Below the pieces are notes generated by a model. It was not told the DNA's origin. It made no database searches and was given only the letters and a program-made list of their open reading frames with translations. From positions 62,001 through 126,000 of IMG/VR virus record IMGVR_UViG_3300020204_000009: a DNA stretch of 64,000 nt. One strand, written 5' to 3'. The stretch comes from a virus. A program made the translations under genes and the position numbers. This document shows, piece by piece, positions 1,105 through 18,916 of this stretch. Position 1 is the stretch's first letter. Each line of letters begins with the position of its first letter.

Positions 1105-1830
1105 ATGAAATCCATGTCTTCTTTACAAATCAAGTACGCTACTAAGGATGTTGTGGGATTCGTAGTCAACAGCGAGCTTTTCTATTTAAAATTCGGACCA
1201 AATATTCCACAATTGTTCGATGAATCTCTGTCTGGTCTCGTTATACCAAATCTCGATTCTTGGATTCAGTCAAAGACTCAACAGCGATATTCTTATCAAT
1301 CACTGCGAGACATGGCGTTAGCGTTCCATGCGGGAATTTCTGCGGCTTATAATCTCGACGATGTGCATACGTTGTGTGATTCAACTATTCAGTTCACAGT
1401 TCATGAAGTTAACCATAATAGTTTGATTTATGATTATTCTCTGATATATTGGATCGAAATTCTTGGTCCGGATCAAATGGAGCTATATCTGAAAAAGATT
1501 AGGGACAACTTTGTCCGTATTCGTTCGCAGATTGGTGATGATAAATTATACAATAATCTATGCCGAATGTATAAAACCTGTCTACGCCAGCAACCTCATA
1601 ACGCCAATGTGTGTGAAAAACTTATTAAGCGTTTGGGCAGGATGCCGACAGAGCCGAGCTATCCTAAGACAGACGAGACCGATCAGCAGGTATTATTAAA
1701 CACAAGAGAAGCTGTACGAAAGTCACTCGGCACGCACTATAAGAATATACCCGACCACATAGTAGAGGCTGTAAATGGTATACAAAGCGGAAGACTACCA
1801 AGGGCCGAAGGAATTCGTCCATCTTCATAA
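1105..1830 (+). CDS. Unknown 241-aa protein between actin-like and DnaE-like genes
   Basis: I do not recognise this protein. It is mostly helical by composition, with a charged C-terminal third and no clear cysteine or nucleotide motif. Several in-frame starts exist (TTG 1087, GTG 1102, ATG 1105, ATG 1114) and none has a good ribosome-binding site; ATG 1105 is a compromise. The 3' end overlaps the DnaE-like start by 56 bases, so the two are probably translated from one message. Actin-type partition systems often encode an adaptor next to the filament protein, but nothing in the sequence shows that role here. Confidence 0.6.
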   Translation: MKSMSSLQIKYATKDVVGFVVNSELFYLKFGPNIPQLFDESLSGLVIPNLDSWIQSKTQQRYSYQSLRDMALAFHAGISAAYNLDDVHTLCDSTIQFTVHEVNHNSLIYDYSLIYWIEILGPDQMELYLKKIRDNFVRIRSQIGDDKLYNNLCRMYKTCLRQQPHNANVCEKLIKRLGRMPTEPSYPKTDETDQQVLLNTREAVRKSLGTHYKNIPDHIVEAVNGIQSGRLPRAEGIRPSS

Positions 1831-3199
1831 TCATACGGTATTCTCCGCATTAGATGGCGTAGCCACTCCTGAGCAGTATGCCGAGCAATGCTATAAACGT
1901 GGATATCCGGCCATGAGTGCCACCGAGCATGGCCACATGGCATCTGTACCGGACATGTACTTGGCATTTAAGAAATATAAGTTGAAATATATTCCCGGAT
2001 GTGAGATTTATTTCAACGATTTCGAGCCAAAGAGACAAGAACTAGTCGCTCAAAAAGTGAAAATCCGCTCTCCTGAATGGCGGCAAGAAAACTTGGAGTT
2101 GGCCCAACGTATCGGTCGAAATCGACATCTCACTGTTCTATGTAAGAATGAAGTCGGTTTCCATAATCTAATAAAACTGACTACCCAGGCATATTCGACC
2201 GGACTGTTCGGACTGGGCCGAATACAATATAATCGAATCTGGTTTGATAAATTGTGTGAATTCAAAGAAGGGCTTATTATTCTGTCTGGATGCTTGAATG
2301 GCCCGGTGTGTCACGAACTGCGATATAAACAGTTGATGGACAGAGAAGGCAATGTGCTGAAAGAACGCACTAAGAACGAACGTGTTCTCGATGCTGTTCG
2401 TTGGATTAAGAAATTCAAAGAGGCATTTGGAGAAGATTATTTTATCGAACTTCAAATGCCCGGAATCGAGGGTGACGACGTAATATTTCGTAACCTCGTC
2501 GATCTTGCCGATAGGTTCAAAATTCCGCTGGTACTCGCTAATGATTGCCATTATCTGGGCCGCGAAGACTTCATTATTCAGAAAGTGATGATGGCTATTG
2601 AGCAGGAGACTACTGTTGACTCGCCTGACCTGTTTCATGTCAATAGCGACGAACAATATATGAAGACCCGCGAAGAGCTGTGGGCCAGATTTAAGAACAA
2701 TGGATATTCAAACGGGGTTGATGATCGAGTCTTTGAGCAGATGTGTGACAATACTCTGTTGGTTGCCGAGCGATGCCGTTCGCTTGATGTCGACATGTCC
2801 CCGAAGATTCCAGAAATAAACCGTGCTGACGATGAATTGAAACGAATCACTGCGGTTCGCTTGAAGCAGCTTGGATTGGATAAGAACCCTAAGCGATTTC
2901 TGATTGATGGGCGTGAAGTCACATATGTCGAGCAAGCGAAAATCGAACTTCAGCGGTTCATCGATAAGGGTTTCGCCAGTTACTTTTTAATCACACGCGA
3001 TCTGGTAAGATATGGCCGATCTAAAGGTTGGCCGTTTAGCCCTCGTGGTAGTGCTGGTGGTTCACTGGTGTGTTACCTGCTTGGTATACATGTTATAGAC
3101 CCCATGCTGTGGAATTTGTCATTCGACAGGTTTTTGTCGCCAAGTCGCGGCGGTTACATGCTAAATGTAACTATGCCGAAAGAGGAGTACATAAGTTAA
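1775..3199 (+). CDS. dnaE (N-part): DNA polymerase III alpha (DnaE-like), N-terminal part: PHP domain and palm GS motif
   Basis: 474 residues. The PHP domain opens with HLHNH (16-20), then TEHGHM (50-55), GCEIYF (75-80) and NDCHY (256-260), the usual metal-site positions. The palm begins about 380 and carries the family C nucleotide-binding motif PRGSAGGS (423-430) followed by LLGIHVIDP and FDRFLSPSR. In intact DnaE the next residues would be the catalytic MPDIDxD; here the protein runs into YMLNVTMPKEE and stops. The two catalytic aspartates are therefore missing and are found in the gene at 5045. Start ATG 1775 has AGAGG seven bases upstream. The stop is clean, without intein motifs or a frameshift that would restore the catalytic segment. 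Probably a subunit of a two-gene replicative polymerase. Confidence 0.9.
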   Translation: MVYKAEDYQGPKEFVHLHNHTVFSALDGVATPEQYAEQCYKRGYPAMSATEHGHMASVPDMYLAFKKYKLKYIPGCEIYFNDFEPKRQELVAQKVKIRSPEWRQENLELAQRIGRNRHLTVLCKNEVGFHNLIKLTTQAYSTGLFGLGRIQYNRIWFDKLCEFKEGLIILSGCLNGPVCHELRYKQLMDREGNVLKERTKNERVLDAVRWIKKFKEAFGEDYFIELQMPGIEGDDVIFRNLVDLADRFKIPLVLANDCHYLGREDFIIQKVMMAIEQETTVDSPDLFHVNSDEQYMKTREELWARFKNNGYSNGVDDRVFEQMCDNTLLVAERCRSLDVDMSPKIPEINRADDELKRITAVRLKQLGLDKNPKRFLIDGREVTYVEQAKIELQRFIDKGFASYFLITRDLVRYGRSKGWPFSPRGSAGGSLVCYLLGIHVIDPMLWNLSFDRFLSPSRGGYMLNVTMPKEEYIS

Positions 3200-3228
3200 C
3201 CCAACTGCCTTTTTAGGATGTACACTTT

Positions 3229-3771
3229 ATGAGTGCCGAATTTCCAAGATTGCCCGATGATCAGCCAAACATTTTGACAGAAGCAGAGTCTGGGCCTGAA
3301 GTCTTGGAAGTGGATTTGGGGACGTATCCGGGATTTATTAGTCAGGCGGCGTTGCAAGAATTAAAACACTCGATTCGTATGCACCTGATTCTTATGGCCG
3401 GGCCATCACAACAACTGTGTTCGTTTCTGATCAAGACCATTGACTTTTTTGAAGATTCGGACGAGGCACGCCGCGACAGGGAAATGCTCTCGCTGAGCTT
3501 CCATATCATTGAAGGTCTCGCTCTGTTCGTTCAGCAATCTGTGGACGAACGGGCAGACAAAGCGAAAGCGATGAATCAAGAATTCCCTCAGAGAATCAGG
3601 TTGGCTTCTGATAATATCCTGGTCATGGTCGGCAAGAGCCGTAATCTTGATGATCGGGTCGCAGCCAAGTACGCGGTGTTGAGAACTGTCGCGGACGCAT
3701 TACGAGAATTGGCTACATTCACGAAGGCTGTGTACCCACAAATCATTGATGCATCTGGTAATGTTTTATGA
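3229..3771 (+). CDS. Unknown helical 180-aa protein inside the split polymerase locus
   Basis: No family recognised. After an acidic, Pro-containing N-terminus the protein is almost entirely alpha-helical in character, with heptad-like hydrophobic spacing from about residue 40 to 165 and no cysteines in pairs. It follows the N-terminal DnaE part by 29 bases and ends in an ATGA overlap with the next gene, so it is probably translationally coupled and made together with the polymerase parts. A structural or accessory role in the replisome is only an inference from position. Confidence 0.7.
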   Translation: MSAEFPRLPDDQPNILTEAESGPEVLEVDLGTYPGFISQAALQELKHSIRMHLILMAGPSQQLCSFLIKTIDFFEDSDEARRDREMLSLSFHIIEGLALFVQQSVDERADKAKAMNQEFPQRIRLASDNILVMVGKSRNLDDRVAAKYAVLRTVADALRELATFTKAVYPQIIDASGNVL

Positions 3772-4232
3772 AATTCACCATCTTCTGCGATGTTGTTGTA
3801 AAGGACGAAGGTCAGGCCACTCAAATGGCGGGATGTGGTGTCGCCATTATCGCTGAAGAAGGTGCACGATCGAAAAAACGATCATACTCGTTCGGTCTTG
3901 GTGGTTCTGATACCGAACTATCTAATATCCAGGTTGTCAGGCTTGCATTAGCATCGGTGCTGCCGCCGTTTCGCAAGTCTGAAGTTCTTCTGCATGTCAC
4001 TGACAGAAGAGCGATCGATCTTTTGGCCCGGTCTGGGGCTGATTATAGTATAACGCCTGACAAATATCAAGTCGAAATCGCTGAATTGCGAAAATGGTAT
4101 AAGTATTATTCCAATATCACATTTATCCTTGATGCCAGTGCTGATAAAAATATCATTGAAGCCCATGGTTTGGCAACTGCTGCTTGCCAGACTCAGAAGA
4201 ATACTGATTCTAACACCATTGATATCTCGTAG
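3768..4232 (+). CDS. RNase H-fold protein, active site apparently degenerate
   Basis: 154 residues with the layout of RNase HI: a first strand ending in CD (FTIFCDV), a GCGVAII second strand, a helix with ELSNIQVVRLALASVL where RNase HI has NNRxELxAxxxAL, a strand ending in VTDRRAIDLL where the family has TDSxYV, a Trp-containing helix, and a terminal N-x-x-x-AHGLA where the family has N-x-x-AD-x-LA. By this alignment the first Asp and the TD Asp remain, the catalytic Glu is Val and the last Asp is His, so nuclease activity is doubtful. It could serve as a nucleic-acid binding or structural member of the fold. Overlaps the preceding gene by four bases. Confidence 0.45.
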   Translation: MKFTIFCDVVVKDEGQATQMAGCGVAIIAEEGARSKKRSYSFGLGGSDTELSNIQVVRLALASVLPPFRKSEVLLHVTDRRAIDLLARSGADYSITPDKYQVEIAELRKWYKYYSNITFILDASADKNIIEAHGLATAACQTQKNTDSNTIDIS

Positions 4233-4281
4233 TGTTGAAATAGCGACATGATTCGCTTTATCGAGATTGATTGAGGATTAA

Positions 4282-5052
4282 ATGTCTCTTGAAGTTAAAT
4301 TGACTAGCATACGAGTTAATAAAAGTCGAAAGATTAATGATGTAGATGTAAAACGAGACAGCGAAGAAATCTATAATATTGATGGAACAGAATACTCACT
4401 CGATGGTGCTGTAGAATATTTGTCATCCAAAAAATCGCATAATCCCGGCGAAATCGCCTATTCAAAGACTGCGTTTTTGTTGGTAGAACCTCCTTCACGG
4501 GTAATCTCTGCGCATCAAGCCAAGAATCGGCAGGACCACAAGGCATTAATTGCCAAAGCGAATGTAAAAGGATTATATCTATATTATGCGGACGTGAAAT
4601 GTAGAGATGGGAAATATTATGCCGTCAAACCATGGATAGTCGATTGGGAGACCGTCCCTGAACACCCAGAAGAAATTGCGAAACGCGAGGCCCAACAGGA
4701 GAAAAAGAAGGCAAAGGAAGCAACAAAAGAGGTACCTGAAACGCCAGAACAAGACTCGCTTACATGCCCGTATTGCTCCAAACGTATGTCAAGTACATCT
4801 GGCTTGACGCTTCATATAAAATCCAAACATCCGGATAAATTAAACCAGCATCAAACAAGCACGATGCCGGATGAAGACGACGTGGTAAGTCGTGCGTCTG
4901 AAGTGGAAGAAGTCGGACAATCACAGAGTCTCGATAGTCTTCAATGTCCGTTTTGTGATAAAAAGATGACCAGCACTCCTGGCAGAACTCTGCATATTAA
5001 AAGCAAGCATCCAGAGCGATTAGCGGAATATTTGGAGATGGATCGTGACTGA
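4282..5052 (+). CDS. Protein with two C2H2 zinc fingers
   Basis: 256 residues. Two near-identical C-x2-C-x12-H-x4-H fingers lie at about 161-187 (CPYC...HIKSKH) and 221-247 (CPFC...HIKSKH), separated by an acidic linker; they look like an internal duplication. Between about 129 and 155 is a Lys/Glu-rich helix. The N-terminal 130 residues are unrecognised and contain YADVKCRDGKYYAV-like strands. C2H2 fingers usually contact DNA or protein. It ends 8 bases into the catalytic DnaE-like gene, so it is coupled to it and may bind DNA for the polymerase, but that is inferred. TGAGGA precedes the ATG by five bases. Confidence 0.75.
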   Translation: MSLEVKLTSIRVNKSRKINDVDVKRDSEEIYNIDGTEYSLDGAVEYLSSKKSHNPGEIAYSKTAFLLVEPPSRVISAHQAKNRQDHKALIAKANVKGLYLYYADVKCRDGKYYAVKPWIVDWETVPEHPEEIAKREAQQEKKKAKEATKEVPETPEQDSLTCPYCSKRMSSTSGLTLHIKSKHPDKLNQHQTSTMPDEDDVVSRASEVEEVGQSQSLDSLQCPFCDKKMTSTPGRTLHIKSKHPERLAEYLEMDRD

Positions 5053-7783
5053 CACATGGGAACAGCTAGAATCACTTGCCCGATCCGCATTAGAGAAACG
5101 CGGACTGAATGGCGTGTATAGCGAACGTCTCGATTTCGAACTCAAAGAGATCGATAAGCAAGGTGCGAATGCTTATTGGCTTGCACTGGTGTCTGCTGAT
5201 AAAAAGTTTAAGTCCAATCCGAGCATGCTGGTATTGCCATGGTTGTTGGGAATGGTTCAAGATGACCCCATTGCCAATCGTAAGGAACCGATGCTGTGCA
5301 GTGTGCGTGCGTCGGTGGTCAAAGAGCATTTGCGAACGCACGGCAAAATCCCATCGGATCTGATTAAAGATCAGGACATGCCGGATATTGACCTCGATTG
5401 CTTGCCGGAAGCACGAGACCCGATTAAAGAATATGCAATGGAGCAATATGGGGTCGGATTGAATGATGATGGTTACGGTCCTGTGTGTAGTGTCGGCACG
5501 TGGCAGACATATAAATTCAAATCGGCGATCATGGACGTGTCAAAAGCTCTGGAAGCTGTTGATCCGGCAAGAGTTTTCGAACTAACCAAGAAACTACCGG
5601 AAGACGTAGACAATCTTAAAGATGGCGGATATGCTGCGTGCAAGAACCGCGTTATCGATGGAATTACTAATCAAGAAAAAGAATGTGGGACAGTTCACGA
5701 TCAAGCTGTGTGTCCGTCGTGTGGGTCATCGGACACTGATGCTCCCACTATTGGTAAGCTTTTGCAAGAACACGCTGATTTAGCTGCGTTCAATCGGCTT
5801 TTTCCAACAGTTATAGACTATGCAGTGAAACTAGTTGGGCGTATCCGAAATATGGGTATGCACGCCGGGGCGTTGATTATCGCCGATCGAACGTTGTATG
5901 GCAATATTCCACTCGCGAAGAATAGCAATCGTGGATACTGGGTGTCGATGTGGACAGAAGGCAGAAATACTCAACTGTCGAAATTTGGATATTGCAAATG
6001 GGACGTTCTTGGATTAAAGACTCTTGAATATATCTTCAGATGCTCTCAGCTTATTGAACAAAATCGCGGTATTACATTTGGTCCAAATGCCGAAGGCTGG
6101 GATGATATTGACCCTCTTCAAAATCGTGCGGGGCATTATTTTGATGGCTGTGGGAAAAAGTGCTACATCAATCTGAATGATCCACACGCTCTCAAACTTG
6201 CTAACGAGCAGAAGACTGATGCTGTTTTCCAATTTGATACCGATCTAGCCAAAAGTTTTTTGGCACACGGTGTCCGGCATTTTAATGACTTGATGTTGAT
6301 AAACGCTATGGGCCACCCTGGGCCGATGGCATCGATTCCTGAAGCAATGCAAAATCGAGATGATAAGAAGGCATTGTGGAAACAGAAGCTTCATCCGGAT
6401 ATCTTGCAAGTTCTCGAAGACACTTATGGGGTTATTGTCTATCAAGAGCAGTTGCAGGCCATATGGCAACGCTTGGCTGGGTTCACCGCGCCGGAAGCTC
6501 AGGAAGCCCGGAAAGCTGTTGCTAAAAAATGGGCACATAAATTGAAGCCGATTCGGGCTAAATGGATCGATGGTGCCTCGAAAACTCTTGGTCGTGCTGA
6601 AGCCGAATTATGGTGGACCAAGATGGAAACGTTCGGGCGATATGCATTCAATAAATCTCACTCTGTGTCATATTGTTTAGTGGCTCTTCGCTGTTTATGG
6701 TTAAAGGCCCATTTCGCTCCGGAGTTTTGGGCTGCGGTGATGAGCGATTGTCATCCGGATAAACTGGTTAGGTATATGAGTGTTGCTCGTGCCGAAGACT
6801 GGCACCCGACTGATATCACGTATTCCGGGCGTGCTCCGAAAGTGCGAGCCAAAGGCATCACATTTGGAACGTTGAACATTGATAATCTCACCGTCAATTA
6901 TACTGTTACTGATGATATTGTCAATCAGGGACTCATTGGAATTAAAAAAGTCGGTGACAAAGCTGCTGAAGTATTCGCCGGTCGTGGTAATTGGACTAGC
7001 ATCGATGAATTTGTTGAGTCGTCAGAAGGCAGACGAAATAAGACTGTTTTAGAGCGATTCATCAAACTTGGCGCGTTCGGTTCAATTAAGGGTCATGAAA
7101 ATTCTCAAGCATTGTGGCAGTGGTACCAATACCAATATTGCTCTGGTGTGACTGCATTGAGGACGGAAATTCGGCAGAAACTACTGGCCGAAGATGGTTG
7201 GAATGACAAGACCATCAATGAGGAACGGAATCGACAGATTGACGAATATAAGCGTCAATTTCCGAATCGTCGTAAAATTCCGCCTAAATTCAATAATTGG
7301 GTACCTAAGCCTGACGACACCCGCGAACGAGTAATGGCGTTGTATCGGGAAGACTTTAGCCAAGCCGAGAAACTTGCGTTTCAGAAAGAATTTTTGGGCT
7401 ATTATCTTGACTCACCTTTGGAATTGTTTGCTATTCGCGGTGGATGCACTATCAAAGATGCAAAAGCTGCGTGCATTGCTGGTGCTGAAGATGCTCATCT
7501 TGAGGTCATGGTGGTTGACCAACAGTTTGCGACTACGAAACCGCGTGACGGTCGAAGTGGGTCACAATATGTCAAACTGACTGTGACAGATGGCATTCAA
7601 CGAACCATGATATTTATATGGAATAATGAATTATCTTGTCAAGATCCTCAAAATTTGGTCGAAGGTGCAGGCATCCGCATGCGAGTACGATACGACAAGC
7701 AGCGTGGCACATTCAGTATGTGTCATGGTTCGAATATAATTAGCTTACGTCGCTATCAAGAAGACGAAAATGCAACTACCTGA
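5045..7783 (+). CDS. dnaE (C-part): DNA polymerase III alpha (DnaE-like), catalytic C-terminal part
   Basis: 912 residues without PHP. Residues 1-110 resemble the palm entry of DnaE (LARSALEKRG, FELKEIDKQG, then PWLLGMVQDDPIA in place of YLLGITDxDP) but have lost the GS motif that the 1775 gene keeps. MPDIDLD (112-118) gives the paired catalytic Asp; CKWDVLGLKT supplies the third at about 320. Downstream are HAGALIIAD, VFQFDTD, GHPGPM, YQEQLQ and AFNKSHSVSY, all standard fingers/palm segments, a tandem helix-hairpin-helix region near 640-680 and an OB-like domain near 820-900. A zinc-ribbon-like insert with C214, C223 and C226 is unusual. Template-directed DNA synthesis presumably needs the N-part for the nucleotide-binding loop. 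Confidence 0.92.
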   Translation: MTDTWEQLESLARSALEKRGLNGVYSERLDFELKEIDKQGANAYWLALVSADKKFKSNPSMLVLPWLLGMVQDDPIANRKEPMLCSVRASVVKEHLRTHGKIPSDLIKDQDMPDIDLDCLPEARDPIKEYAMEQYGVGLNDDGYGPVCSVGTWQTYKFKSAIMDVSKALEAVDPARVFELTKKLPEDVDNLKDGGYAACKNRVIDGITNQEKECGTVHDQAVCPSCGSSDTDAPTIGKLLQEHADLAAFNRLFPTVIDYAVKLVGRIRNMGMHAGALIIADRTLYGNIPLAKNSNRGYWVSMWTEGRNTQLSKFGYCKWDVLGLKTLEYIFRCSQLIEQNRGITFGPNAEGWDDIDPLQNRAGHYFDGCGKKCYINLNDPHALKLANEQKTDAVFQFDTDLAKSFLAHGVRHFNDLMLINAMGHPGPMASIPEAMQNRDDKKALWKQKLHPDILQVLEDTYGVIVYQEQLQAIWQRLAGFTAPEAQEARKAVAKKWAHKLKPIRAKWIDGASKTLGRAEAELWWTKMETFGRYAFNKSHSVSYCLVALRCLWLKAHFAPEFWAAVMSDCHPDKLVRYMSVARAEDWHPTDITYSGRAPKVRAKGITFGTLNIDNLTVNYTVTDDIVNQGLIGIKKVGDKAAEVFAGRGNWTSIDEFVESSEGRRNKTVLERFIKLGAFGSIKGHENSQALWQWYQYQYCSGVTALRTEIRQKLLAEDGWNDKTINEERNRQIDEYKRQFPNRRKIPPKFNNWVPKPDDTRERVMALYREDFSQAEKLAFQKEFLGYYLDSPLELFAIRGGCTIKDAKAACIAGAEDAHLEVMVVDQQFATTKPRDGRSGSQYVKLTVTDGIQRTMIFIWNNELSCQDPQNLVEGAGIRMRVRYDKQRGTFSMCHGSNIISLRRYQEDENATT

Positions 7784-8333
7784 TAAATCCGGAATCTCTT
7801 GTGATTCGTGTGGGATCACGTATCGCACAGATTTTTCATATTATTCGTTTGATTTTCATAATGTCGCTGTTTATAATAATCAGCGACCTCCCATAGATAC
7901 CATTATTCGATCCAATACTATATTTTCTGTTGATATTTGTACCAATTGCTTCGAAATTATAAGGAAAACGCTGATAGACAACTATTCCGAAATCATGGCT
8001 CCGAAGCGTGCAGCAAAACCGACACCGACTGTTACATGTGAGATGACCGGAAAGAAGCTTGCCGGAACATATGAATATTATTATTGTGTCGTCGCCAAAG
8101 CAAATGTCAAAATGTCTGGACAGCCAAATGTGTGCGTCAAATGCAGGACGCAGACTTTTGACAGCGATAAGCCGTGTTCGAAATGCTCTGGGAAGGAATT
8201 TATTCGGCTCGCTGCTATGGACATTGATCGTCGGCATGTCGAGATAAGTATGTGCGAGGAAGCGTACAAAGCATTTGTAATCAAAGCCGAGACGATTCGC
8301 AAGACGGCTGGGCAATGGTCAACTAAATCATGA
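7770..8333 (+). CDS. Multi-CxxC zinc-binding protein
   Basis: 187 residues with four Cys pairs: CDSC near residue 11, CTNC near 57, and a CVKC/CSKC pair near 122 and 136 separated by an acidic loop, which together suggest two treble-clef or ribbon zinc sites. A basic hinge (PKRAAKP) sits in the middle. No enzymatic motif seen. It begins 14 bases inside the catalytic DnaE gene and is probably co-translated; a nucleic-acid or protein adaptor role is plausible but unproven. Conserved family not recognised. Confidence 0.7.
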   Translation: MQLPDKSGISCDSCGITYRTDFSYYSFDFHNVAVYNNQRPPIDTIIRSNTIFSVDICTNCFEIIRKTLIDNYSEIMAPKRAAKPTPTVTCEMTGKKLAGTYEYYYCVVAKANVKMSGQPNVCVKCRTQTFDSDKPCSKCSGKEFIRLAAMDIDRRHVEISMCEEAYKAFVIKAETIRKTAGQWSTKS

Positions 8334-13123: not shown

Positions 13124-13456
13124 ATGGATACTCAAAGCACGAAATTCAGTAGGTTTGATCAAGTCAAAATAGTTACTGTTCGTAACGTCCATTATCTATC
13201 TGCACCACCGGGTTCTGTCGTCTCACCAAAAGGCGTTTGGCAAGTATCTGCGGCCATTGGTGATGAATTGTTGCTTGTTAAGGGGAATGCAACTATTAAG
13301 ATCCCGGTGACAGACGTTTTGAAGGTGGTTGACTATAACGTAAATGCCGTCACGGCTAAATTTGGGAGACTGAGTGAATATGGCCAAGAGCGAAAAGTCG
13401 GAGAAGAAGACGACCCCGATCCCCAAAAATCTGGAAGAACTTCAGAAGGGAATTGA
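13124..13456 (+). CDS. Small beta-rich protein upstream of recA
   Basis: 110 residues. The first 85 residues look like a small barrel: alternating strands with VRNVHYLSAPPGSVV and GDELLLVKGNATIKIPVTDVLKVV. The last 27 residues lie inside the recA start and are polar. No family recognised; a KOW/SH3-type fold is a guess. The 83-base overlap with recA is long but both frames look protein-like upstream of the overlap. Confidence 0.55.
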   Translation: MDTQSTKFSRFDQVKIVTVRNVHYLSAPPGSVVSPKGVWQVSAAIGDELLLVKGNATIKIPVTDVLKVVDYNVNAVTAKFGRLSEYGQERKVGEEDDPDPQKSGRTSEGN

Positions 13457-14513
13457 AAAGGAATTTGGCTCTGGGGCCGTTATGCGTGGTCGTGGCTCAG
13501 TAGTAAAGGTCGATGTCTTCCCAACCGATGTGGCGTCTATTGATATCGCCTTGGGATGTGGTGGATTACCACAAGGCAGGATTATTGAAGTCTACGGTGC
13601 TGAAAGCAGCGGTAAGACTACCACATGTCTACAATTCATTGCCGCGTGCCAGCAGCACGAATTTGCCGCGAAATCTCGGAAGGGTGTTGCTGCGTTTGTT
13701 GATGCCGAGCATGCACTTGATCCGACATGGGCAGGAAAGGTCGGGGTCAATATGTCCGATCTTTTAGTATCTCAACCAGATAGCGGCGAAGAAGCGTTGA
13801 TGATTGTTGAACGGATAGTCGATTCTGGGCTGATCGACCTGATCGTCGTGGATTCGGTTGCCGCTCTCACACCAAAAGCTGTTCTCGATGGAGAAGTGGG
13901 AGATTCGACAATGGCGGCTTTGGCACAATTGATGTCCAAAGCTATGAATCGCCTCAAGGGGAAATGTAACCGTACCAAAACAACGGTTATTTTTATCAAT
14001 CAAGTTCGCGAGAAGGTAGGGATTGTGTTTGGAAATCCAGAACTTACCCCAGGTGGCCGAGCACTGAAATTCTATGCTTCTGTACGAGCGGAAGTGAAGA
14101 AAGGAAGTCCTATCAAGCATGGCGATGTCATCGTTGGTTTCCGCCCGTCGATAAAGATTGTGAAGAACAAAGTTGCTCCGCCATTTATGATTGGCGAATT
14201 CGACATTTGTGTGGGGATGAAAGAACGACCGGTATTTGGCATCGATACCGTTGCATCCTTGCTGGAAGTTGCGTCGACTCAGAAAATTGTATCAAGAAAC
14301 GGGTCGTTTTATGTTTATGGCGACCAACGTCTTGGAAATGGGTTGGCAAACGCATTGAGTACTCTTAGGAGCAACCCTAAGATTGTGGACGAACTCAAAA
14401 CGAAAATATATGATGGGATTTGTTCTCATAATGTCGTCGAAGACGAGTGTGATGAGAATGATTCCTTTGATGTAACGGACGACATTTCGGATACCACAGA
14501 GGCAGAATTATGA
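13374..14513 (+). CDS. recA: RecA recombinase
   Basis: 379 residues from GTG 13374 (GGGAG five bases upstream); ATG 13380 is the alternative. Bacterial-type RecA rather than T4 UvsX: Walker A GAESSGKTT (75-83), FVDAEHALDP, LIVVDSVAAL (Walker B), loop L1 DSTMAALAQLMSKAMNRL, INQVREKVG with loop L2 GNPELTPGGRALKFYAS. It forms filaments on single-stranded DNA and drives strand exchange for recombination-dependent repair and replication. The C-terminus is acidic, as in cellular RecA. An ATGA overlap couples it to the next gene. Confidence 0.96.
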   Translation: MNMAKSEKSEKKTTPIPKNLEELQKGIEKEFGSGAVMRGRGSVVKVDVFPTDVASIDIALGCGGLPQGRIIEVYGAESSGKTTTCLQFIAACQQHEFAAKSRKGVAAFVDAEHALDPTWAGKVGVNMSDLLVSQPDSGEEALMIVERIVDSGLIDLIVVDSVAALTPKAVLDGEVGDSTMAALAQLMSKAMNRLKGKCNRTKTTVIFINQVREKVGIVFGNPELTPGGRALKFYASVRAEVKKGSPIKHGDVIVGFRPSIKIVKNKVAPPFMIGEFDICVGMKERPVFGIDTVASLLEVASTQKIVSRNGSFYVYGDQRLGNGLANALSTLRSNPKIVDELKTKIYDGICSHNVVEDECDENDSFDVTDDISDTTEAEL

Positions 14514-17608: not shown

Positions 17609-18916
17609 GTGTGTTTTGAGGATGTGAGCACTATCTATTTTTACACATTGTTTGATCCCACGTCCGGTAAGCCGCGATGTGCGGGCATACGTATTGGCGA
17701 CAAGATTACTGTTTATGATCTATTCCGCCCCGGTGCTGGTAAGAAAATTCGCACTATCAATGAGACTATAGCCAAAATCCGCGAGTTTCTTATAACATCG
17801 AATGATCGTGGCCACACGATCATAGCTTCTAACTTCAAAAAGCTCCTGCATACGTATGGTCTGCCATTAGATTCTCGACAGTATAATGTGTATGATGTTC
17901 ACATCGATAATCCGGCTAATCCGATTCGTCCGACCAACAGTCAATCAAAAGACAATTTGCTGTTGCGAAAGATTCTAGAACGAATGGCATCGGGCCATCA
18001 CTATGAATACCAGAAATTAATATCTAATGCTGCCGTAGTTTACCAAGATTTGGAAAATCGTGGCCTTTTTATTAATGACGAATTATTTAGACCAGAATGG
18101 TCTATGATTACATTCTCTGGTCGTAGCAAGACTACTGGATTCAATATTCAAGGATTTCATGAAGACCACTATGTCCGAACAGTTGATGCATCAATGAATA
18201 GTGTGCTGCTGCATTTTGACTGGATTTCGGCTGATATTCGTGCTGCGTCATTATTATCTGGGGACCCATTATTAACTAAAAGTTTCGAATCCTCTGACCC
18301 GTACACTGAAATGGTCGGGTTCTTCCAGAAGCACAGAGCCGGGGAGATAGACAGAGAGGAATGTAAAAAGTATCTGCTGCGTTCTATAAACTCGATGGAC
18401 ATTGAAAGCGATGCATTTGTCATTTATCAGCAATTGGGTGAATGGATACTGAAATGTTATAATATCACTCGTAAATCTGATGGATTCCTTGAAACATTAT
18501 TACATCGTAGGTTTAAGGTTTCTCGTGCGAAAAATGCATTGGCAGTGTTGAATGGAGCTATGCAAGGATCAGTCGCCCATGCAATGCACGCTGCTATTAG
18601 AAGGATTTGGGAGCGTCTTGGGTCATATATTTTGGTCGAGATTCATGACTCTATTATTATGTCGGTTCCAAATGATTCGGCTGTGATACGGGCTACGATA
18701 GATACTGTAGCACCGATAATGATGCATCCGTTTTCGGGATTATTAGCAGATGACCCATTGTTTCCAGTCAGAGTGAGTATTGGAAAGCGTTGGAAGAAAT
18801 GGCAATTATTAGAGACTCATCGAGCGTCTGGAATTGAACGTGTCCAAAAAACGCGACAAGCAACTCCAACGACAGCGATCGAAGGCCAAGAAACGGGAAA
18901 ACCGGCTGAAGCGTGA
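17609..18916 (+). CDS. Family A DNA polymerase-like protein, diverged
   Basis: 435 residues. SGRSKTTGFNIQG (170-182) matches the TGRxSSxxPNLQ signature; motif A is DWISADIRAASLLSGD (D204) and motif C is VEIHDSI (D347), and NGAMQGSVAHAMHAAI matches the NxPIQGSAAD helix. The O-helix motif B (RxxxKxxNFGxxYG) is not recognisable. The first 130 residues resemble a 3'-5' exonuclease fold with its acidic residues lost (ASNFKKLLHTYGLPL). Catalytic aspartates remain, so it may be a reduced gap-filling polymerase or an inactive partner. GTG 17609 is used; GTG 17624 is possible. The 5' nuclease of Pol I is encoded separately at 21065. Confidence 0.75.
   Translation: MCFEDVSTIYFYTLFDPTSGKPRCAGIRIGDKITVYDLFRPGAGKKIRTINETIAKIREFLITSNDRGHTIIASNFKKLLHTYGLPLDSRQYNVYDVHIDNPANPIRPTNSQSKDNLLLRKILERMASGHHYEYQKLISNAAVVYQDLENRGLFINDELFRPEWSMITFSGRSKTTGFNIQGFHEDHYVRTVDASMNSVLLHFDWISADIRAASLLSGDPLLTKSFESSDPYTEMVGFFQKHRAGEIDREECKKYLLRSINSMDIESDAFVIYQQLGEWILKCYNITRKSDGFLETLLHRRFKVSRAKNALAVLNGAMQGSVAHAMHAAIRRIWERLGSYILVEIHDSIIMSVPNDSAVIRATIDTVAPIMMHPFSGLLADDPLFPVRVSIGKRWKKWQLLETHRASGIERVQKTRQATPTTAIEGQETGKPAEA

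Follow-up and report, generated by a model that had tools for sequence, protein, structure and literature searches.

The stretch of DNA considered here, a window of 64,000 nucleotides corresponding to bases 62001-126000 of the 157,281 bp virus record IMGVR_UViG_3300020204_000009 in IMG/VR, encodes a family-C DNA polymerase that is divided between two genes. The first open reading frame (ORF), of 474 aa, carries the PHP domain and the GS nucleotide-binding loop (the N half, or N), and the second, of 912 aa, carries the catalytic aspartates and the remainder of the enzyme (the C half, or C); three further genes lie between them. An original prediction made from the sequence alone had placed a split family-C polymerase with three intervening genes at this locus, and both statements hold, with the GS loop on N and the Asp pair on C; the prediction located the GS motif at residues 423-430, and the alignment places it at 424-430. 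Polymerases of the DnaE type usually keep palm and active site on one chain, whereas here the GS loop and the Asp triad are found on different ORFs.

The assignment of the two halves rests on complementary matches to the same protein families. N matches the Pfam PHP family (E 1.9e-31; residues 16-227) and positions 16-98 of DNA_pol3_alpha (PF07733), and C matches positions 99-260 of DNA_pol3_alpha, the finger domain and HHH_6. Likewise, residues 14-458 of N span positions 1-395 of the NCBIfam model TIGR00594 and residues 112-857 of C span positions 398-1020, so that the halves tile the model without overlap. DnaE-type NCBIfam models outscore PolC models, and N has no match to any exonuclease family in Pfam, the DEDD exonuclease that is inserted into the PHP domain of PolC-type enzymes included. 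All nine metal ligands of the PHP domain are present in N (H18, H20, D27, H52, E77, H118, C173, D257 and H259). This is the ligand set of active PHP exonucleases according to passages of PMC5636811, which also report five changes in E. coli; our alignment has five changes in E. coli at the same nine columns.

The residues of the active site are conserved on both sides of the break. The GS loop of N reads RGSAGGS; R424 and G425 are kept in 19 of 19 aligned rows and S426 in all 18 rows that reach its column, six single-chain homologues included. For relatives that carry inteins, the rows were truncated ahead of the intein, and since the N row of one relative, L054, ends there, its cells for S426 and S430 are gaps. 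The catalytic triad of C, D114, D116 and D320, is kept in 20 of 20 rows, again with the six single-chain homologues, and corresponds to the E. coli triad D401, D403 and D555. N terminates shortly past ..VTMP, where single-chain enzymes go on into the catalytic Asp: its C-terminus is ..RFLSPSRGGYMLNVTMPKEEYIS, and E. coli DnaE has ..RFLNPERVSMPDFDVDF at the matching place in the alignment, which puts the break at the catalytic Asp pair.

Monomer models from AlphaFold2 (AF2) agree with these assignments. The mean predicted local distance difference test score (pLDDT) is 85.9 for N and 84.4 for C, with values below 50 in the tail of N (residues 454-474) and in the Asp loop of C (residues 110-124). 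Comparison with DnaE structures, a check that the original prediction had proposed, aligns N 12-464 with Pol III alpha 3e0d (VIA-align Z 34.5, root-mean-square deviation (rmsd) 8.5 over 392 residues) and C 89-700 with Pol III 5lew (Z 21.5, rmsd 6.6 over 484 residues); further VIA-align rows, OB folds among them, reach residue 907 of C.

C begins with a second, degenerate copy of the palm entry, that is, of a segment that N holds as well. The original prediction had described about 110 residues here that resemble the palm entry and lack the GS motif, and profile comparison bears it out. The starts of 14 C sequences from the window and its relatives, compared by hhalign with 15 palm entries truncated ahead of the Asp pair, give E 9.4e-8 and a probability of 94%, and none of 150 column shuffles comes near (46.2 against a shuffle maximum of 18.7). 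It is mainly on this comparison and its shuffles that the claim of homology is based, and less strongly on a single-sequence test, in which hmmsearch with a model of 175 palm entries aligned 14 of 14 C starts over the same model stretch (15-33 common to all), nine of them outscoring every one of 2,800 shuffled decoys and five falling short of the best decoy. An earlier hhalign comparison with six sequences was weak (P 0.068), and Pfam hmmscan on the N-terminal segments of C alone matched DNA_pol3_alpha in 1 of 10 (E 0.19); on the C frames of two relatives, G001 and G004, the PF07733 alignment begins at position 5 or 6. The palm entries derive from a collection of 20 DnaE sequences or parts of them, of which SA-C12, S-CoN_Ph4, phage G, phi127 and L064 did not fit the GS pattern and were excluded; the 15 others and 160 new loci, taken as the 80 top matches from each of two scans, make up the 175. 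The single-chain set includes parts of divided or interrupted polymerases (phiST gp044, Trina B, KLEB27-3, Sienna gp66 and L061), and the Arg motif pattern used for it allowed Gln.

The two copies of the palm entry differ in what they have kept. The copy on C retains the Y..R..E helix and the ..LLGM..DP stretch and shows an alignment gap at the place of the GS loop, such that the Arg of Y..R..E is present in 14 of 14 C copies and the GS loop in none (the C row of L034 does contain an RGS, but past DP and away from the place of the GS loop). In the N rows, Gln replaces this Arg in 13 of 13, and RGS is found in all 12 rows that reach the loop. Across the 175 aligned family-C palm entries, which were found with a model that itself contains the GS loop, 169 have the Arg, 175 have the Glu, 175 have RG and 174 have RGS; Gln occupies the Arg column in five (Moorella and four others). 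Since C is devoid of the GS loop and N of the conserved Arg, each copy has lost something that is kept by the other. The loss on the N side is small, because N otherwise has a complete palm entry and because Gln also occurs in these five sequences. As judged from the alignments, the reciprocal loss is real but lopsided: the decay that the original prediction ascribed to both segments stands for C, while the copy on N is a full palm entry in which only the Arg was found lost.

The split is a shared property of a group of related viruses. IMG/VR was scanned with each half and with their alignments, and 20 contigs were found to encode the C half (19 by the scan and one more by tblastn), of which 18 carry N as a separate ORF on the same contig; the other two, L027 and L029, stop short of N's place. 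There are near-duplicates among the contigs (L023 and L024 do not differ in either half), and the aligned segments of the relatives are ~35-88% identical to the window's N and C. Both halves were also found in 13 of 13 related records that were searched whole. The common order is N, a 180-aa gene, a 154-aa gene, a zinc-finger gene and C (Table 1), with the 180-aa and 154-aa genes found by tblastn in part of the clade only and similar-sized ORFs occupying those places in the L005 group.

Table 1. Positions of the polymerase halves, of genes around them and of other polymerase-like ORFs in the window and in two related records
Feature	Sequence	Position	Strand	Length and start	Evidence or remark
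N half, family-C DNA polymerase	window	1775..3199	+	474 aa, ATG start	Pfam, NCBIfam, alignments, AF2, VIA-align
180-aa protein between halves	window	3229..3771	+	180 aa	tblastn synteny, same place in part of clade
154-aa protein between halves (RNase H-like in the original prediction)	window	3768..4232	+	154 aa	synteny in part of clade
C2H2-type zinc finger protein	window	4282..5052	+	256 aa	Pfam zinc-finger families; directly before C in many relatives
C half, family-C DNA polymerase	window	5045..7783	+	912 aa, GTG start	Pfam, NCBIfam, alignments, AF2, VIA-align
Degenerate second palm-entry copy, C residues 1-111	window	5045..5377	+		hhalign, hmmsearch, motif counts
Cys-rich protein after C	window	7770..8333	+	187 aa	synteny: near C in most fetched stretches; no Pfam match
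Family-A polymerase-like ORF	window	17609-18916		435 aa	
PHP-less single-chain family-C ORF	L068	875-2626	-	583 aa	second gene
PHP-less single-chain family-C ORF	L069	1414-3093	-	559 aa	second gene

Both halves bear the mark of selection. The ratio of non-synonymous to synonymous substitution rates (dN/dS) in the informative pair L005/L009 is 0.013 for N (0.012 for the N palm alone) and 0.028 for C, of which residues 1-112 give 0.064; in the pair L034/L035, C 1-537 gives 0.107 and C 1-116 gives 0.021, and in the pair L030/L031, C 1-112 gives 0.082, the remaining comparisons being saturated or between identical sequences. These ratios indicate that purifying selection acts on both halves, and the low values at the start of C imply that the extra palm-entry copy is not junk. 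The distances between N sequences correlate with those between C sequences (r 0.96, 66 non-independent pairs).

Overall, the profile comparison, the motif counts, the column counts over 175 sequences and the tiling of TIGR00594 make it quite probable that the two genes encode subunits of one family-C polymerase with a shared active site. N would supply the PHP domain with its nuclease metal ligands and the GS loop for the phosphates of the incoming nucleotide, and C would supply the three catalytic Asp residues, the fingers, the HHH domain and the OB fold. Since the tail of N ends where the strand of the Asp pair begins on C, N should dock onto the palm of C and thereby complete it. The extra palm-entry copy on C is probably a structural or docking element that would provide the helix with the conserved Arg. 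Heterodimer assembly, shared catalysis and this role of the extra copy are inferred, and the low pLDDT in the N tail and in the Asp loop of C would fit a situation in which each needs the other.

Several observations weigh against such a shared site or against its importance in replication. Low pLDDT is common at chain ends and in loops and is weak evidence. No other family-C match was found in the 157-kb record or in 11 of the 13 related records, which may be incomplete, but two of the 13 hold an extra PHP-less single-chain family-C ORF of 559-583 aa, which is small and which, on the original prediction's own criterion, would speak against a sole role for the split enzyme. A short family-A-like match is present in 12 of the 13 relatives (395-467-aa frames; 10 of the 13 above the family cut-off). 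Given such family-A-like matches, the split polymerase need not be the only or the main replicase. Finally, on one contig N and C are ~56 kb apart on opposite strands, C being accompanied by matches to two of the in-between genes, so that co-expression is not always achieved by neighbourhood.

A more far-reaching version, to which we would give slightly less than even credence, is that the polymerase is an obligate two-subunit replicase whose palm is made from reciprocally degenerated duplicates. N would bring the GS loop and a PHP proofreader, C would bring the Asp triad and add a swapped-in Arg helix, neither chain would be able to hold the nucleotide and catalyse alone, the enzyme would replace the family-B polymerase of other T4-like phages, and in L035 it would be encoded by four genes owing to split inteins. 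A family-B polymerase (PF00136) was found neither in the own record nor in any of the 13 relatives, none of these records, the own one included, being known to be complete.

With regard to origin, it is possible, although we put this forward tentatively, that two different family-C polymerases met, and that one was cut down to N and a PHP-less one to C, the overlap being the palm entry of the second. The copy on C is much closer to general family-C palm entries than to the clade's own N palm alone, for which hhalign gives E 0.0087 as against 9.4e-8, and PHP-less single-chain family-C ORFs occur in two relatives. However, both halves sit on long branches, and the trees left the attachment of the clade unplaced; when single chains were included, N joined L063 and L065 at 0.94, and C was placed at the midpoint root by way of a long branch. 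The tandem duplication proposed in the original prediction, if ancient and since diverged, would give a similar picture.

It is improbable that C is a complete polymerase, with a degenerate palm entry of its own and another way of binding the nucleotide, and N a separate PHP nuclease or regulator. C bears its own palm-entry helices, and these are well modelled (pLDDT blocks mostly 79-91 for residues 1-100), but C 1-86 is beyond the aligned range of all Pol III structure rows listed. Moreover, the GS loop is missing in every one of the C copies when the family-C palm entries of the comparison set have RG without exception and RGS in all but one, and N retains a GS loop for which there would be no evident use absent the Asp triad.

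A joining of the halves into one chain by protein or RNA trans-splicing between MP and D appears very improbable. In Bacillus phage G the same site, between LP and D, is apparently interrupted and associated with a GIY-YIG ORF, and split inteins occur elsewhere in the clade, between FNK and SH in C and in the GS motif of the L035 N. Against this, N and C of the window have no match to an intein model in NCBIfam or Pfam, and C begins at a start codon of its own, with 111 additional residues that a joined product would hold inside the palm. Rfam gives no match in the whole window (gathering threshold) or in 3000-5450 at E up to 1, a negative that is weak because Rfam likewise missed the intervening sequence of phage G. 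An insertion at the break site may have started the split; Rfam, NCBIfam and Pfam found no remnant of an intron or intein at the break in the window. That the split is an artefact of assembly or annotation, or a decaying gene, is hardly credible, given its presence in 18 contigs of separate IMG/VR records at ~35-88% identity to the window halves and dN/dS values (0.013-0.064 in L005/L009, 0.021-0.107 for C of L034/L035) that argue against decay.

Inteins and split inteins have densely invaded the polymerase halves of the relatives L007 (2166-12905), L030, L034, L035, L037 and L054. Intein models of NCBIfam and Pfam match relatives and phage G, though often with scores under the curated cut-offs (TIGR01445 among them). 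The N gene of L007 carries two in-frame inteins, and its C is cut between FNK and SH by an apparent split intein with a separate 572-aa ORF in between; L030, L034 and L035 show this same cut in C. A split intein also cuts the L035 N within the GS motif, with a 337-aa ORF between the N parts and a 515-aa ORF between the C parts, and as both halves are cut in this way, four ORFs are needed to make the L035 polymerase. An in-frame intein interrupts the GS motif of L054 at that very point (Pfam intein scores are below the curated cut-off), and inteins inside this motif would be as expected for a constrained site. Together with the apparent interruption in phage G, mobile elements thus return to these sites. 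The 512-572-aa ORFs inside the cut C genes (L007 9982-11700, L034/L035 10913-12460, L030 10862-12400) are possibly free-standing homing endonucleases; the L007 ORF has no Pfam match.

A family-C polymerase that is divided between its nucleotide and metal sites is an idea already in print. The split of the group 2.2 jumbo phages and that of Cellulophaga phage phiST share the region of the break. Passages of Iyer 2021 (PMC7824862) describe the Pol III alpha of group 2.2 jumbo phages as an N-terminal protein that binds nucleoside triphosphates (NTP) and a C-terminal protein that binds Mg and template, and propose that the two reconstitute one enzyme. The break between NTP-binding and Mg-binding parts is shared with the window, where the boundary falls between positions 98 and 99 of PF07733. 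As described there (PMC7824862), the jumbo-phage version lacks PHP and the rest of the Pol III domains, its genes lie far apart, and it occurs alongside a family-B polymerase, whereas the polymerase of the window keeps PHP, HHH and OB, its clade has no family-B match, and its genes are mostly clustered. In Atu_ph07, a member of group 2.2, an N-type piece with a GS loop ends ..DFSEFLE, within a few residues of the window break; it covers PF07733 18-98, the final few of these positions extending beyond its stop. A search with the clade C alignment did not find the C piece of Atu_ph07, and PF07733 matched nothing in PTm1 or PaBG, so that this type of split was checked in one phage. The degenerate palm-entry copy is a feature of C in the window clade, and the likeness to the jumbo-phage type is judged from the N piece only.

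In phiST (KC821604), gp044 and gp045 are adjacent and have the same break, with PF07733 4-98 and 100-260 and TIGR00594 5-396 and 398-883, respectively. Unlike the C half of the window, gp045 has no palm-entry copy and only 20 residues ahead of the Asp pair; the tail of gp044 is longer by ~50 residues, and no genes lie between the halves. In Bacillus phage G, the DnaE gene (gp329 and the following pieces) is apparently interrupted exactly between LP and DIDID. The interruption resembles an intervening sequence with a GIY-YIG ORF and is joined by an intein in the GS motif, which is unlike the window, and the portion read has no overlapping palm-entry copy. Cyanobacterial DnaE with its split intein, as well as the 'fractured genes' with split inteins, are made as parts that are spliced into one chain. 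Such cyanobacterial intein-split sequences are mentioned in a passage of PMC3919608. They resemble the clade in that DnaE comes from two genes and that C of L007, L030, L034 and L035 is cut with intein-like ends; in contrast, the window's proteins have no intein halves at the break between MP and D. A description of this phage clade was not found in the open-licence literature, and as far as searches of that literature show, what is new is the PHP-bearing full version conserved across one phage group, together with a degenerate copy with complementary losses.

Other named phages whose match looked divided were considered and rejected, the inspection covering part of the 1,331 phage records matched by N (60 in each of two listings). 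A single chain is found in the Streptomyces phages Celeste and Wentworth and also in Pseudomonas phage jett, so that the two entries for PA5 in a viral structure library probably stem from a normal gene that is simply broken. In Rhodococcus phage Trina the cut separates PHP from palm; in Bacillus phage KLEB27-3 it falls, as judged by eye, within the fingers, and an HNH gene separates the parts; and Gordonia phage Sienna has the GS loop and the Asp pair on one chain. The break between MP and D is seen in none of these phages.

The genes around the polymerase resemble those of a T4-type myovirus, with matches to RecA, a DnaB-type helicase, gp32, tail-sheath and gp15-type proteins, a UvsY-like protein, a primase and an NAD-dependent ligase. 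The original prediction labelled the three genes between the halves as helical, RNase H-like and two-zinc-finger proteins. Pfam supports the zinc fingers and gives no support to the other two labels, as the 180-aa protein has no match in Pfam or PHROG and the 154-aa protein none in Pfam. On the strength of a partly conserved gene order, the products of these genes may belong to the polymerase complex. Upstream of N, an ORF at 82-1032 has a Pfam match (PF25216, E 3e-40) to Volactin, an actin family, and many of the fetched stretches contain it at ~60-73% identity on the upstream side of the polymerase. In the relative L012, a 196-aa ORF (13451-14041) between C and the Cys-rich gene looks, by eye only, like a QueC-like ATP-pyrophosphatase.

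A replicative polymerase is usually pictured as one catalytic chain. A lineage that has stably kept a cut through the active site, along with a degenerate copy of the severed region and conserved catalytic residues on either side, would offer a natural system for asking how much of the palm is separable, and may show in what way a polymerase could have arisen from separate pieces. Breaks at this place or a few residues away from it in three phage groups (the clade described here, phiST and Atu_ph07), together with the interruption in phage G, point to a recurrent seam in the fold. The two genes would amount to a natural split DNA polymerase, possibly one that can be switched by assembly.

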